Below are positions 9,484 to 16,209 of a stretch of 44,474 nucleotides of DNA, piece after piece. The notes under the pieces are model-generated. The model had not been told where the DNA came from, did no database searches, and saw only the letters and a program-made list of their open reading frames with translations. The stretch lies in NCBI GenBank assembly GCA_030673105.1, contig DAOVJS010000003.1, positions 1-44,474 on the forward strand, read 5' to 3'. A program made the translations under genes and the position numbers. Origin of the DNA: Spirochaetota bacterium. Lineage in GTDB: Bacteria; Spirochaetota; B62-G9; DRHN01. How positions within the stretch are numbered: position 1 is the first letter of the stretch; every line of letters begins with the position of its first letter.

Positions 9484-9502
9484 ACACACTGCTGACAAAG
9501 CT

Positions 9503-9576
9503 GGGAACGTGGCGAAGCTGGTTATCGCGCCGGCCTGTCAAGCCGGAGATCGCGGGTTCAAATCCCGTCGTTCCCG
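9503..9576 (+). tRNA. tRNA-Asp (GTC)
   Basis: GGGAACG/CGTTCCC acceptor, anticodon loop CTGTCAA, T-loop GGTTCAAATCC, discriminator G; no encoded CCA. Confidence 0.96.
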
Positions 9577-9616
9577 AATCAATAGTTAATTAGAATAATT
9601 AATGTCACCAGATAAA

Positions 9617-9690
9617 CGGGCTATAGCGCAGTTTGGTAGCGCGCACGGTTCGGGACCGTGAGGTCGTGAGTTCAAATCTCACTAGCCCGA
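9617..9690 (+). tRNA. tRNA-Pro (CGG)
   Basis: CGGGCTA/TAGCCCG acceptor, anticodon stem-loop CACGG-TTCGGGA-CCGTG, T-arm GAGTTCAAATCTC; no encoded CCA; followed by T-tract. Confidence 0.95.
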
Positions 9691-9750: not shown

Positions 9751-10632
9751 CTATAAGTCGCACATATCAAGCAGCTCTGGAACGTACTTTTCCCATCCCA
9801 TGGCCATTATGTGAAGGCCCTGACACATTGGCTTTACTTCTTTTATAAATTCTACCATGAGCTCAATGCTCTTTTTCGGCCTATCCTCTTTGGATGCCTC
9901 CTTGAGAGGTGTAATCATGGAATCAGGAACCTGTACCCCGGGTACAAAGTTATTCATATAGTTGGCCATTCCTGCGGATTTGATAATGACAATTCCGCAT
10001 AGGACAGGAACCTTATATTTAGAAGCTTTGTCCATGAAATTTTCAAATACTTTAGAGTCATAAATTGCCTGTGTCTGGAAAAACTGGGCTCCTTCCTCTA
10101 TTTTTCTCTCCATTTTTATAAGCTGCATCTCTATTGGATCAGCGCCTGGAGTTACAATGGCACCGCAGAAAATATCCCCGGGAACCCCTTCCAGTTCCTG
10201 CCCGGCAAGGTCTTTTCCATTTTTTAAAGAGTTCATAGCCGTGAGTATACTCACGGAATCAAGATCGAACACGGGTTTACTTTCAGGATGATCTCCGGCT
10301 GAATTATGATCGCCTGTAAGAGCAAGTATGTTCCTGATACCCAGCACATAGCCCCCTAGAATATCTCCCTGTATGGCAAGCCTGTTTCTATCCCTGGCGG
10401 TTATTTGCAGTATAGGCTCCAATCCCTGCCTGGCCAGAAGTGTACAAATACTCAATGAACTGATACGCATCACTGAGCTCTGGTTATCTGTGACATTAAT
10501 TGCAACGACACGGTCTTTTATATATGAAACCTCCTTATCCATGCAGTGTTCCAAATCTACACCTTTCGGAGGCCCTACTTCCCCGGTAATTGTGAATTTG
10601 CCCTGCTCCAAGCTTTCCTGTAATTTACTCAT
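9751..10632 (-). CDS. metF: Methylenetetrahydrofolate reductase, MetF family
   Basis: TITGEVGPPKG, NVTDNQSSVMRISS, ITARDRNRLAIQGDILGGYVLGIRNILALTGDH, GAQFFQTQAIYD. Confidence 0.93.
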   Translation of the reverse strand: MSKLQESLEQGKFTITGEVGPPKGVDLEHCMDKEVSYIKDRVVAINVTDNQSSVMRISSLSICTLLARQGLEPILQITARDRNRLAIQGDILGGYVLGIRNILALTGDHNSAGDHPESKPVFDLDSVSILTAMNSLKNGKDLAGQELEGVPGDIFCGAIVTPGADPIEMQLIKMERKIEEGAQFFQTQAIYDSKVFENFMDKASKYKVPVLCGIVIIKSAGMANYMNNFVPGVQVPDSMITPLKEASKEDRPKKSIELMVEFIKEVKPMCQGLHIMAMGWEKYVPELLDMCDL

Positions 10633-11347
10633 TCGATGCCTCCTCCTTCTCTGAATTCAGCACAGGTGCTGAATAAATTTCAGCTTTTTCCAGTGCCCAG
10701 CGCGTTGTGGTCCTCTCCTTATCAGGCACATCCATTTTTCTGTAGTCCCGTAAACGCGGGAGCTTCTTTAAATTTTCCAGTTTTCCAAGCTCGTTCAATC
10801 TTATATAAATAAGATTCCAACCACAATCCCTTTCATTTTCCACCTCGCATTTGCCATCATGCTGGCCGCCGCACATTCCATTAATCAGGCTCTTTGAGCA
10901 CATTGTTATGGGGCATATACCGCCGGTAAGTGCAAGATAACAGGTGCCGCAGCCCGCGCATCGCTCGCTGGAAGGCCATAGTCCCTGCATACCCTGGCTT
11001 GATAACGTATCGTTGGCAGGTATGACCGGAATATCTATCATATTTCCAGTAGCCTGAACACCGATGCCGCAGGATATTACGAGTACTGCCTGTGATTTTT
11101 TAAGCTTCTCAATATGGTATATAAGCTTTGATCCAACAAGGGCCTTGTTACACAGAAAGTCTATTTCAGTGCTTCCCTCAACTTCTATGCCATTCTTTGA
11201 AAGCTGCTCTGTTAGTTCATCGATTCTCGGTTTTCCGCCTGAATCACACCCTACAGGGCACCCTCCGCATGCGACAATAAACAGGCTCTTGTAACCTGAG
11301 ACCATCTCAATAAGTTCTTTACCTGGCTTTGGAACATTGACAACCAT
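10625..11347 (-). CDS. metV: MetV-like Fe-S partner of MetF (MTHFR C-terminal zinc-binding/MetV family)
   Basis: Cys-rich: VACGGCPVGCDSGG, CAGCGTCYLALTGGICPITMCSKSLINGMCGGQHDGKCEVENERDCGW; overlaps metF by 8 nt. Confidence 0.88.
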   Translation of the reverse strand: MVVNVPKPGKELIEMVSGYKSLFIVACGGCPVGCDSGGKPRIDELTEQLSKNGIEVEGSTEIDFLCNKALVGSKLIYHIEKLKKSQAVLVISCGIGVQATGNMIDIPVIPANDTLSSQGMQGLWPSSERCAGCGTCYLALTGGICPITMCSKSLINGMCGGQHDGKCEVENERDCGWNLIYIRLNELGKLENLKKLPRLRDYRKMDVPDKERTTTRWALEKAEIYSAPVLNSEKEEASNE

Positions 11348-11386
11348 TCATGTGCCTCCTTATTTAAATGCTGGTTTTTTATAGTC

Positions 11387-11848
11387 TTAACTGACTGTTT
11401 CGATGCCTTCCTTCTTTAATTCATCCAGAACTGTTGCTATGATGTAGTTCATTTTTTCTTTTATTTGCGGAGAAAGCTCCATTGAGAGTTCAATTTTATA
11501 AGGCTCGATACCGAAAAAAACGACCTCATCCGGAAATTTTCCCAAAACCCTCTCCAGTTTAATCGATTCCAGGACTCCAAAATCATGAAGAGATATCGTC
11601 ACAGGCCTTCCTGCCTCTTCAATATCGCCCGGTTTAAATCGATAAACGGTTCCCGCCTCCCGGCCTCCGTTTACAGCATCGATAATAATAACCTTTTCAA
11701 AACTTCTAAGATCGGATACGATATTGAAAAAAGAAGTTCCCGCATCTATTAACTCAATGTCCCCTGTATACGATTTCTTTTCCAGTATATTTACTACTTC
11801 TATACCGACGCCTTCGTCTCCCATCAGTATATTTCCAACTCCAACCAC
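11387..11848 (-). CDS. [NiFe]-hydrogenase maturation endopeptidase (HyaD/HycI family); real start probably upstream
   Basis: VGVGNILMGDEGVGIEVV, IDAGTSFF, VIIIDAVNGGREAGTVYRF; directly downstream of the large subunit. Confidence 0.92.
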   Translation of the reverse strand: MVGVGNILMGDEGVGIEVVNILEKKSYTGDIELIDAGTSFFNIVSDLRSFEKVIIIDAVNGGREAGTVYRFKPGDIEEAGRPVTISLHDFGVLESIKLERVLGKFPDEVVFFGIEPYKIELSMELSPQIKEKMNYIIATVLDELKKEGIETVS

Positions 11849-11884
11849 TGCTATCTTTTTCTGAGCCGTAATTGTATACCCTTT

Positions 11885-13444
11885 TTAGACAACTCTTAGA
11901 GCTCCAAGCTTCTTCCCTTTTATATTTAAAGTATGAACCGAACACGCCAGGCATGGATCAAAGGATCTGGCAATACGGACAAGCTCATAAGGATTTTCAG
12001 GATTTTTCACCTCTGTTCCAATGAGCGCCTGTTCCATTGGCCCCGATTGTTCCTTTTCATCTTTCGGAGAACCGTTCCATGTGGTAGGCACAACGAGCTG
12101 GTATCTTTCTATTTTTTTATTTTTGATCTTTATCCAGTGGCCCAGTGCCCCACGCGGCCCATCGACGATTCCCATGCCCTCTGATTCCTCCGGTATTTCA
12201 TAGGCTACGCATACAGGCTCTCCTGCCTTTAGTTCCAAAACCCAATCGGCCATACTGTCCGCGATCAGCTTGGCATCCAGAGCGCGAGCCGCATGTCTTC
12301 CGAGAACCGAGTTAAGGTCCTTTGTTTCAATATTCAATGCTTTCATGCAACCCTCAAGCGCTTCTTTTACCTGTTTCTGACCGGAAAGATACGACACTAC
12401 CCATCGAGCGAGCGGTCCGACTTCATAAACCTTTCCTTCGTACCTTGGTGACCTGATCCAGCTGTATCCTTCTTTTTTCCGTGCATTGGGTTTTGTATCT
12501 TCTTTAGTAGGATGTAAAGCATCCTCACCTTCATACCACGAGTGTTTTATACTTTCGGTAATGCTGTCGGTATTCAATTTTTTCAAGGCACTCAGGCCTT
12601 CAACAGCACCCTGAGGAATCAATCGTTTCCTGGTCGTATAATCATCTGACTTCCCATCAAGGTCAAAAACTCCGTAGCTGAGAAAGTTTCCGGGACCTGC
12701 GCCTATGTTGAAATAATCAGAGTAGGTTTTTGCTACCGCTATTACGTCCGGAATATATGTGTTATCAATAAAATATCTCAGCTTATTAAGCCTCCATAAA
12801 AACCGTGTGATTTTATCTATTGAAGGATGCTCCGTTACCCCGCCGGGAACGACCGACGCGTTATGAGGCATCTTTCCACCAAACAGGGTAAGCATTTCAT
12901 GTGAGAGCCTTCTCATTTCCAGGGCTGTCAGATAGTGTTTTGTCAGTTCCTGGTTTGTTTCTTTATCAAACCGGTAATCACCCTCATACCTTGGAACAAA
13001 AGGCGAAAGCTCACCCCTTGCTATGAAGTCTTTTAAAGAATTCAATTCAGCATCTTTACCGCTGTAGTCAGCTACGGCAGTCACATCTGCAAAATCAAGC
13101 GCCGCTAAATGGTAAAAGTGAAGAATATGTGATTGGATATAATTGGCCCCGAGGATGAGATTTCGAAGGATTCTTCCATTATCCGGAACTTTATCTGCAA
13201 TACCAAACGCACTGTCAAGATTCAGGGTCGATGCTGTTCCATGCACCGTAGGGCAGACACCACAGACTCTCTGCGTGATTCTCTGCGCGTCTCTCGGATC
13301 TCTATCCCTCAAGAAGATTTCAAAACCTCTGAAGAGTGTTCCTGAACATTGAGCATCCTTAACCACTCCATCCTCAAGATAGGCATCTATCTTCATATGA
13401 CCTTCAATTCTGGTCAATGGGTCAATTGTTATCTTGGTCGACAT
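11885..13444 (-). CDS. [NiFe]-hydrogenase large subunit
   Basis: L1 RVCGVCPTVHGTAS; L2 DPCLACSVH followed by 15-aa C-terminal peptide TLNIKGKKLGALRVV; RIEGHMKIDAYLEDG. Confidence 0.97.
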   Translation of the reverse strand: MSTKITIDPLTRIEGHMKIDAYLEDGVVKDAQCSGTLFRGFEIFLRDRDPRDAQRITQRVCGVCPTVHGTASTLNLDSAFGIADKVPDNGRILRNLILGANYIQSHILHFYHLAALDFADVTAVADYSGKDAELNSLKDFIARGELSPFVPRYEGDYRFDKETNQELTKHYLTALEMRRLSHEMLTLFGGKMPHNASVVPGGVTEHPSIDKITRFLWRLNKLRYFIDNTYIPDVIAVAKTYSDYFNIGAGPGNFLSYGVFDLDGKSDDYTTRKRLIPQGAVEGLSALKKLNTDSITESIKHSWYEGEDALHPTKEDTKPNARKKEGYSWIRSPRYEGKVYEVGPLARWVVSYLSGQKQVKEALEGCMKALNIETKDLNSVLGRHAARALDAKLIADSMADWVLELKAGEPVCVAYEIPEESEGMGIVDGPRGALGHWIKIKNKKIERYQLVVPTTWNGSPKDEKEQSGPMEQALIGTEVKNPENPYELVRIARSFDPCLACSVHTLNIKGKKLGALRVV

Positions 13445-13465
13445 GATTACCCTCCGTTTTTGAAG

Positions 13466-14350
13466 TTAACGTGTTTTAATTTTAAATCTTTCAAGCGCGT
13501 CTTCATTTAGCTTTGTAAACATGGGTGCAAGTTTATCTTGAAAGTCGGGCTCCACACATCCTATACACTGCGCACCTGCACCTATACACCAGTTTGTTCC
13601 ATTATTCCACTGCCTGCTGGGACAGTCAGCATAACTATATGGTCCTTTACAGCCGATTTCATATAGGCAGCCTGGCTCGCTGGGGTTTCGCGCGAACTGA
13701 CCTGCATCAAAAAATGCACGGCGAGGGCAGTTGTCGTGAATAAGATCTTTAAAAAACGCTTTTGGTCTTAATTTTTCGTCCAGGTCATCAGGTGACGGAA
13801 GACCATTAATAAGAACATGCGCTATTGTCCCGACTATCCAATCGGGGTGCGGCGGGCATCCCGGAATATTAATCAACGGTGTGGATATACCCTCATTTTT
13901 GAAAAAATCAGCCACAGACAGTGCTCCGGTGGGGTTTGGAGCCCCTGATGGTATACCTCCGTAGGAAGAACACGTTCCCACAGCAAGCACGGCAAGCGCG
14001 TCTCTAGCGAGCTCAGCCGTCATATCTTTCATTACAACTTCCTCTCCATCAAGTTTACCAATTGTGCAGTAGAGTCCATCCTCTGCAGTCGGAACAGACC
14101 CTTCCACCATGAGAATGTACTCATTCGGCTTTTGAGAAATAGTTTCTCTCAATATCTTTACGACAGGCTCACCCTGCCCTGCCATTAATGTGGCGTGAAA
14201 TATGAGAGATACATGCTTCCCGGGAAGAACAGGATCAACTAAAACGTTCTGGATACTCGGACTAATTGAATTTAACAGCGAAACAGAACACCCTGAACAG
14301 GCAGCCCCTGCTATCCAAATCGCTGGAAACTCTACGACTTTTGAAGACAC
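13466..14350 (-). CDS. [NiFe]-hydrogenase small subunit, no Tat signal, GTG start
   Basis: WIAGAACSGCSVSLLN, GTCSSYGGIP, NIPGCPPHPDWIVG, HDNCPRRAFFDAGQF, CPSRQWNNGTNWCIGAGAQCIGC; SD GGAGG 7 nt upstream of GTG. Confidence 0.96.
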   Translation of the reverse strand: MSSKVVEFPAIWIAGAACSGCSVSLLNSISPSIQNVLVDPVLPGKHVSLIFHATLMAGQGEPVVKILRETISQKPNEYILMVEGSVPTAEDGLYCTIGKLDGEEVVMKDMTAELARDALAVLAVGTCSSYGGIPSGAPNPTGALSVADFFKNEGISTPLINIPGCPPHPDWIVGTIAHVLINGLPSPDDLDEKLRPKAFFKDLIHDNCPRRAFFDAGQFARNPSEPGCLYEIGCKGPYSYADCPSRQWNNGTNWCIGAGAQCIGCVEPDFQDKLAPMFTKLNEDALERFKIKTR

Positions 14351-14517
14351 GATCAGCCTCCTTTGTGGTTTTAATTATTAATTTTTCCAATTTGTTTTGG
14401 CAATTAATATTCTGTCTTATTGAAAATTTACCTGATTTCAATTTTTGATGATTTATAAGACGAAGTTTAAGGAGCTCCCACATTTTTCTGTGTGTTTAAA
14501 ATTTAACAATTTAGTAA

Positions 14518-14546
14518 ATTATAGACAGGCGCGAATGTAAAGTCAA
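14518..14546 (-). promoter_or_regulatory. Near-consensus sigma-70 promoter for the hydrogenase-metVF operon
   Basis: On the minus strand: TTGACT - 17 nt (TTACATTCGCGCCTGTC) - TATAAT. Confidence 0.85.
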
Positions 14547-16136: not shown

Positions 16137-16209
16137 GGGGGTGTAGCTCAGCTGGGAGAGCACTTGAATGGCATTCAAGGGGTCAGGGGTTCGAATCCCC
16201 TCACCTCCA
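16137..16209 (+). tRNA. tRNA-Ala (GGC)
   Basis: GGGGGTG/CACCTCC acceptor, GTAGCTCAGCTGGGAGAGC D-arm, CTTGA-ATGGCAT-TCAAG, GGGGTTCGAATCCCC. Confidence 0.96.

Follow-up and report, generated by a model that had tools for sequence, protein, structure and literature searches.

A predicted [NiFe] hydrogenase-MetV-MetF operon recurring in at least nine bacterial phyla: a candidate H2-dependent methylene-THF reductase

Genes and features of the operon

The locus lies in a 44,474-nucleotide contig from a Spirochaetota bacterium (GCA_030673105.1, DAOVJS010000003.1; referred to here as the window), one of 240 contigs of a 61%-complete MAG. Five genes follow each other on the minus strand: hydS (14350-13466, 294 aa), hydL (13444-11885, 519 aa), a maturation protease gene (11848-11387, 153 aa), metV (11347-10625, 240 aa) and metF (10632-9751, 293 aa). 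Gaps of 21, 36 and 39 nt separate the first four, and metV and metF overlap by 8 nt. The sequence-only reading had proposed this arrangement, and it was confirmed exactly. Upstream of hydS, TTGACT-N17-TATAAT (14546-14518, minus strand) is the best sigma-70-like site of the region, with 11 of 12 matching positions. However, as the region contains 19 such sites against 12.3 expected, this remains evidence of consensus only. No adaptor, diaphorase or cytochrome gene lies in the operon.

Pfam and NCBIfam assign the products to the [NiFe] hydrogenase small subunit (NiFe_hyd_SSU_C and Oxidored_q6), the large subunit (NiFeSe_Hases, 1.4e-156), a HycI/HyaD-type protease, MetV (DUF5981, the MetV C-terminal domain, PF12225, 9e-30) and MetF (MTHFR, PF02219, 2.8e-40). 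HydS and HydL are closest to group 1 [NiFeSe]/[NiFe] enzymes in the PDB, the best relatives of HydS being NiFeSe small subunits (1cc1_S, 6.5e-84). A selenocysteine-type enzyme is nevertheless rejected, since the C-terminal motif of HydL reads DPCLACSVH with Cys codons and without in-frame TGA. HydL keeps the NiFe-site cysteines C61/C64 and C498/C501, and its C-terminal extension after His504 fits the presence of the protease. HydS keeps all twelve cluster ligands, assigned by homology to the proximal (C18/C21/C127/C165), distal (H205/C208/C228/C234) and medial (C243/C255/C262/C265) clusters. These include the fourth medial cysteine that gives NiFeSe enzymes three [4Fe-4S] clusters, although not every HydS of such operons keeps Cys255, Bipolaricaulota having A or P. 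HydS starts at the equivalent of the mature protein, behind a good ribosome-binding site, with no Tat signal.

For the protease, initiation at the GTG at 11848 would cut off the conserved KKIAVVGVGN start. An ATT codon at 11872, with AAAGGG six bases upstream, is a likelier start and would reduce the gap to hydL to about 12 nt. MetV, an Fe-S/Zn subunit, carries an N-terminal Cys set (C27/C30/C66/C93), a C-terminal Cys-rich domain and a tryptophan at position 124, discussed below; its Cys positions are conserved as in other MetVs. It has no sequence relative in the PDB. Its AlphaFold2 model (pLDDT 72, parts of the C-terminal Cys-rich half under 50) gave only generic Rossmann-like Foldseek hits, and no cluster geometry was derived from it. 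MetF, the TIM-barrel subunit, aligns with T. thermophilus MetF over the flavin/folate motifs.

Conservation of the hydrogenase-MetV association

Within the Spirochaetota sample, five further genomes of the same order carry the operon, that of G028 being cut by a contig end. HydL is 70-88%, MetV 66-81% and MetF 81-89% identical to the window. The apparent absence of metF in another of these genomes, G003, was rejected, as a 100-N assembly gap begins at the end of metV. The flanks, which include two ORFs that look like sigma factors, a TPR protein and a membrane protein, are shared within this order. Two same-family genomes without the operon (G062 and G055) have MetVF beside an RnfC2-like protein (Complex1_51K/NADH_4Fe-4S), and G003 has a second MetVF beside an HdrA-FlpD fusion. 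Thus, MetVF with different electron-input modules exists side by side in one family.

Beyond this order, a scan of named genomes with HydL returned 53 loci. Thirty of them, and the window, have HydS-HydL-(protease)-MetV and normally MetF on one strand. They come from Spirochaetota, Latescibacterota, Armatimonadota, Chloroflexota, Desulfobacteraceae, a Planctomycetota bin, Nitrospirota, Bipolaricaulota and one unnamed bacterium, that is at least eight named phyla. Most are MAGs, so that single phylum labels may be wrong, but the spread is not in doubt and a chance neighbourhood is excluded. Since the scan used only two peptide patterns, prevalence is underestimated. The labelling of one locus, L041, as 'alone' reflects a contig end, the protease being still upstream.

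Every linked HydS with an intact N-terminus lacks a Tat signal, including those of additional loci found from MetV; the calls obtained for two loci were artefacts of an over-long and a truncated ORF. By contrast, the unlinked relatives, mostly in HydL-protease-HydS or HydS-HydL arrangements, have a twin-arginine-like N-terminal extension, and many also a C-terminal hydrophobic extension (three were scored by eye because the strict motif missed them). Linkage to MetVF and a predicted cytosolic location therefore go together, and the hydrogenase is probably cytosolic, like MetVF.

In phylogenetic trees, linked MetVs form one clade (support 100/99). Linked HydLs as one clade are not rejected (p-AU 0.17), whereas linked MetFs as one clade are rejected (p-AU 4e-96) and come from several lineages. 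Groups were defined by synteny and not by the trees, but one contig-end locus and four second MetV copies were relabelled after the trees had been seen. Our reading is that HydS, HydL and MetV travel together while MetF is replaced, which suggests that MetV is the docking adaptor. Correlation of distance matrices (HydL-MetV 0.79, HydL-MetF 0.68, all permutation-significant) is consistent with MetV as the partner but too confounded by ancestry to count.

We then started from MetV alone, searching an alignment of linked MetVs in samples of Chloroflexota, Desulfobacterota and Bacillota (349, 398 and 399 genomes). Scores were bimodal. All 22 MetVs above 300 bits (3, 17 and 2, respectively) have HydL immediately upstream; these include two genomes already represented in the alignment and one whose contig had been found by the HydL scan. 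Among the lower-scoring MetVs (below 267 bits), of which only the best-scoring loci were fetched in each phylum, none of 68 has one within about 1.5 kb. As the score uses MetV sequence only, this association was not built in. The two Bacillota genomes bring the distribution to at least nine phyla. Position 124 of MetV, just before the Cys-rich domain, is Trp in 24/24 linked MetVs and Gly (65), Thr or Ser in 68/68 unlinked ones, although four to six of the 24 come from genomes used to find the signature. In part of the Dehalococcoidia the N-terminal cysteine C93 is Asp, with a Cys at column 112.

Metabolic context and proposed function

All five sister genomes with the operon hold acetyl-CoA synthase (CdhC), whereas the two same-family genomes without it gave none. 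FTHFS was found in three of these five operon genomes, and HypD in all except the window genome. CdhC, FTHFS and HypD were not found in the incomplete MAG of the window, which does carry AcsD, the AcsE-like methyltransferase and, by appearance, an AcsV-like end and CooC, syntenic with the acs cluster of another genome (G016) and cut by a contig end. In Dehalococcoidia the operon stands between acsB-acsC-nuoEF-cooC and a formate dehydrogenase-like gene, and in Armatimonadota and Nitrospirota folD is its neighbour.

We consider it likely that the operon encodes a soluble, cytosolic H2:methylene-THF oxidoreductase. In this model, HydL, matured by the protease, splits H2 at its NiFe site and HydS carries the electrons through the proximal, medial and distal clusters. 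In periplasmic relatives the distal cluster passes them to a cytochrome; here it would pass them to the Fe-S clusters of the dedicated MetV, then to the flavin of MetF, where methylene-THF becomes methyl-THF. Complex formation, the electron path, its direction and the absence of energy coupling are inferred from sequence, without a multimer model or biochemistry. The sequence-only reading, which had suggested direct transfer from the hydrogenase Fe-S chain to MetV/MetF, is supported: synteny is conserved, and the MetV clade is consistently paired with the hydrogenase and not with another donor. With E0' values of -414 and -200 mV (PMC9430772, PMC8760232), the step yields about -41 kJ/mol at 1 bar H2 and -18.5 at 10 Pa. 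No coupling device is encoded in the operon, so that this energy is probably not conserved, as in the type III enzyme. Somewhat less securely, HydSL-MetV would be a module inherited as a unit across at least nine phyla and combined with interchangeable MetF subunits, using H2 directly without NADH, ferredoxin or a membrane.

Alternatively, the hydrogenase could reduce ferredoxin, or another small carrier, from which MetVF would take its electrons, the operon reflecting co-regulation only. Known MetVF enzymes accept reduced ferredoxin in vitro, and S. ovata MetVF binds its Hdr partners only weakly (PMC8760232, PMC9430772). Operon genomes also hold Rnf and NuoF-like proteins, showing that a ferredoxin pool exists, and in Dehalococcoidia the NuoE/NuoF pair lies just upstream. 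This possibility, although the most serious alternative, seems unlikely to us: it does not explain why one MetV clade with its own signature residue, and not MetF, is tied to this hydrogenase in nine phyla, no ferredoxin gene recurs in the neighbourhood, and reducing low-potential ferredoxin with H2 in a soluble, non-bifurcating enzyme is uphill at low H2.

Other readings appear more remote. The complex could work backwards, making H2 during syntrophic acetate or methyl-group oxidation; all three HydS clusters have four ligands, as in NiFeSe enzymes, which are apparently H2 producers, and many hosts are from sediments where syntrophy is common. Yet the reverse reaction would need H2 below about 6e-8 bar at equal substrate and product, far below normal syntrophic levels. 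Electron bifurcation towards ferredoxin is just as doubtful: the step releases enough energy and bifurcation has been proposed for the type IV enzyme (PMC8760232), but no HdrA-like bifurcating flavin subunit is in the operon, where only MetF is expected to bind a flavin. Least likely of all, the operon would be a mere neighbourhood of Wood-Ljungdahl genes with the hydrogenase feeding something else, as its position inside a larger acs/fdh cluster in Dehalococcoidia could suggest. In Spirochaetota, however, the flanks are unrelated genes and yet the five genes stay together, and the association is with one MetV clade only.

Relation to known methylene-THF reductases and hydrogenases

What reduces MetVF-type enzymes, and whether the step conserves energy, is a long-debated point of acetogen bioenergetics (PMC8760232). 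Here the genes point to H2 itself, in the cytosol and apparently without energy coupling. MetV Trp124 together with a Tat-less HydS offers a sequence marker for such organisms, and the enzyme, if confirmed, would be a self-contained one of interest for H2-driven C1 chemistry. Published methylene-THF reductases of acetogens fall into four types, MetF, MetVF, MetVF-RnfC2 and MetVF-HdrCBA-MvhD (PMC8760232). We found no description of a hydrogenase-MetVF operon in the open-licence papers searched, although an earlier mention remains possible, and propose it as a fifth type.

The type II enzyme of Clostridium ljungdahlii shares the same MetV and MetF families but has no linked hydrogenase. In the type III enzyme of Acetobacterium woodii, also soluble, MetV and MetF are likewise encoded beside one electron-input module that sets the donor, there an NADH-oxidising RnfC2 and here a [NiFe] hydrogenase; no Complex1_51K gene lies in or beside the window operon. 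In the type IV enzyme of Moorella and Sporomusa, MetVF is also fed by an Fe-S partner complex, with electrons from NADH or the quinone/cytochrome chain. H2-dependent methylene-THF reduction has been shown in Sporomusa membranes through a periplasmic hydrogenase and a chain (PMC9430772), not in a soluble complex. No Hdr, MvhD, cytochrome or membrane gene is in the present operon, and hdr and mvhD genes do not recur beside linked operons, apart from an HdrA-FlpD protein preceding a second, separate MetVF at one locus (L079).

HydS and HydL are sequence relatives of the group 1 periplasmic [NiFe]/[NiFeSe] uptake hydrogenases, with the same cofactor ligands. They differ by the missing Tat signal, by Cys instead of Sec at the active site and by their fixed link to MetV; no cytochrome-like gene is in the operon and no unlabelled neighbour family recurs across phyla, although a cytochrome encoded elsewhere was not searched for. 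Finally, the hydrogen-dependent CO2 reductase (HDCR) appears to follow the same idea of a hydrogenase wired directly to a C1 reductase of the Wood-Ljungdahl pathway, reducing CO2 to formate with an [FeFe] hydrogenase and a formate dehydrogenase. If our interpretation is correct, the operon described here would be a second such link, working in principle like HDCR but without shared subunits.

The maturation protease gene and the flanks of the operon

In the window, the protease ORF seems to start upstream of its first common start codon (11848-11884). An in-frame ATT at 11872, preceded six bases before by AAAGGG, restores the conserved KKIAVVGVGN start. In the closest sister genome, the protease gene is split between two frames (locus L036, 4254-4704; also locus L051, 8553-9030), reflecting either a frameshift or an assembly error, while the other four genes are intact.

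Three tRNA genes are carried by the plus strand of the window, tRNA-Asp (9502-9577), tRNA-Pro (9617-9690) and tRNA-Ala (16137-16209), the first two of which face the 3' end of the operon. Moreover, a DUF3786 protein of unknown role recurs next to the operon in Dehalococcoidia and in Armatimonadota (loci L073, 10688-11335, and L056, 6200-6844).

Variation among MetV proteins

Some Dehalococcoidia have a second, divergent MetV within or beside the operon, and these additional proteins form their own clade (loci L066, 3701-4564; L072, 4535-5266; L076, 9767-10498; L078, 4976-5707). In a MetV subclade comprising those of loci L064, L066-L071, L073, L076, L077 and L095, one otherwise invariant N-terminal cluster cysteine, C93 in the window, is replaced by Asp, whereas a Cys is found at the column of window N112, which could correspond to a change of a cluster ligand. 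In addition, PF12225 matches lie in ORFs of 538-559 aa at three positions (genome:contig:position G246:C2:20273, G164:C10:168868 and G148:C115:9409), and these could be MetV fusions.

Related hydrogenases and electron-input modules

A related hydrogenase lineage (loci L060, L062, L063, L074, L075 and L080-L082) mostly displays the order HydL-protease-HydS, although in L063 HydS lies on the other strand. It exhibits Tat-like small subunits with C-terminal extensions and has no MetVF nearby; among these genomes, the three that were searched whole (those of L060, L074 and L081) have no MetV.

The window's genome carries two Rnf-like clusters (loci L127, 4505-9530, and L128, 196-5357), one of them beside NuoE/NuoF-like genes. 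These assignments are based on sequence appearance, the family search having confirmed only the Complex1_51K members. Genomes of the same family carry MetVF beside an RnfC2-like protein or an HdrA-FlpD fusion (loci L032, 1925-3112, in genome G062; L040, 4847-6040, in genome G055; L033, 8307-10412, in genome G003), several electron-input modules for MetVF paralogues being present in one family.
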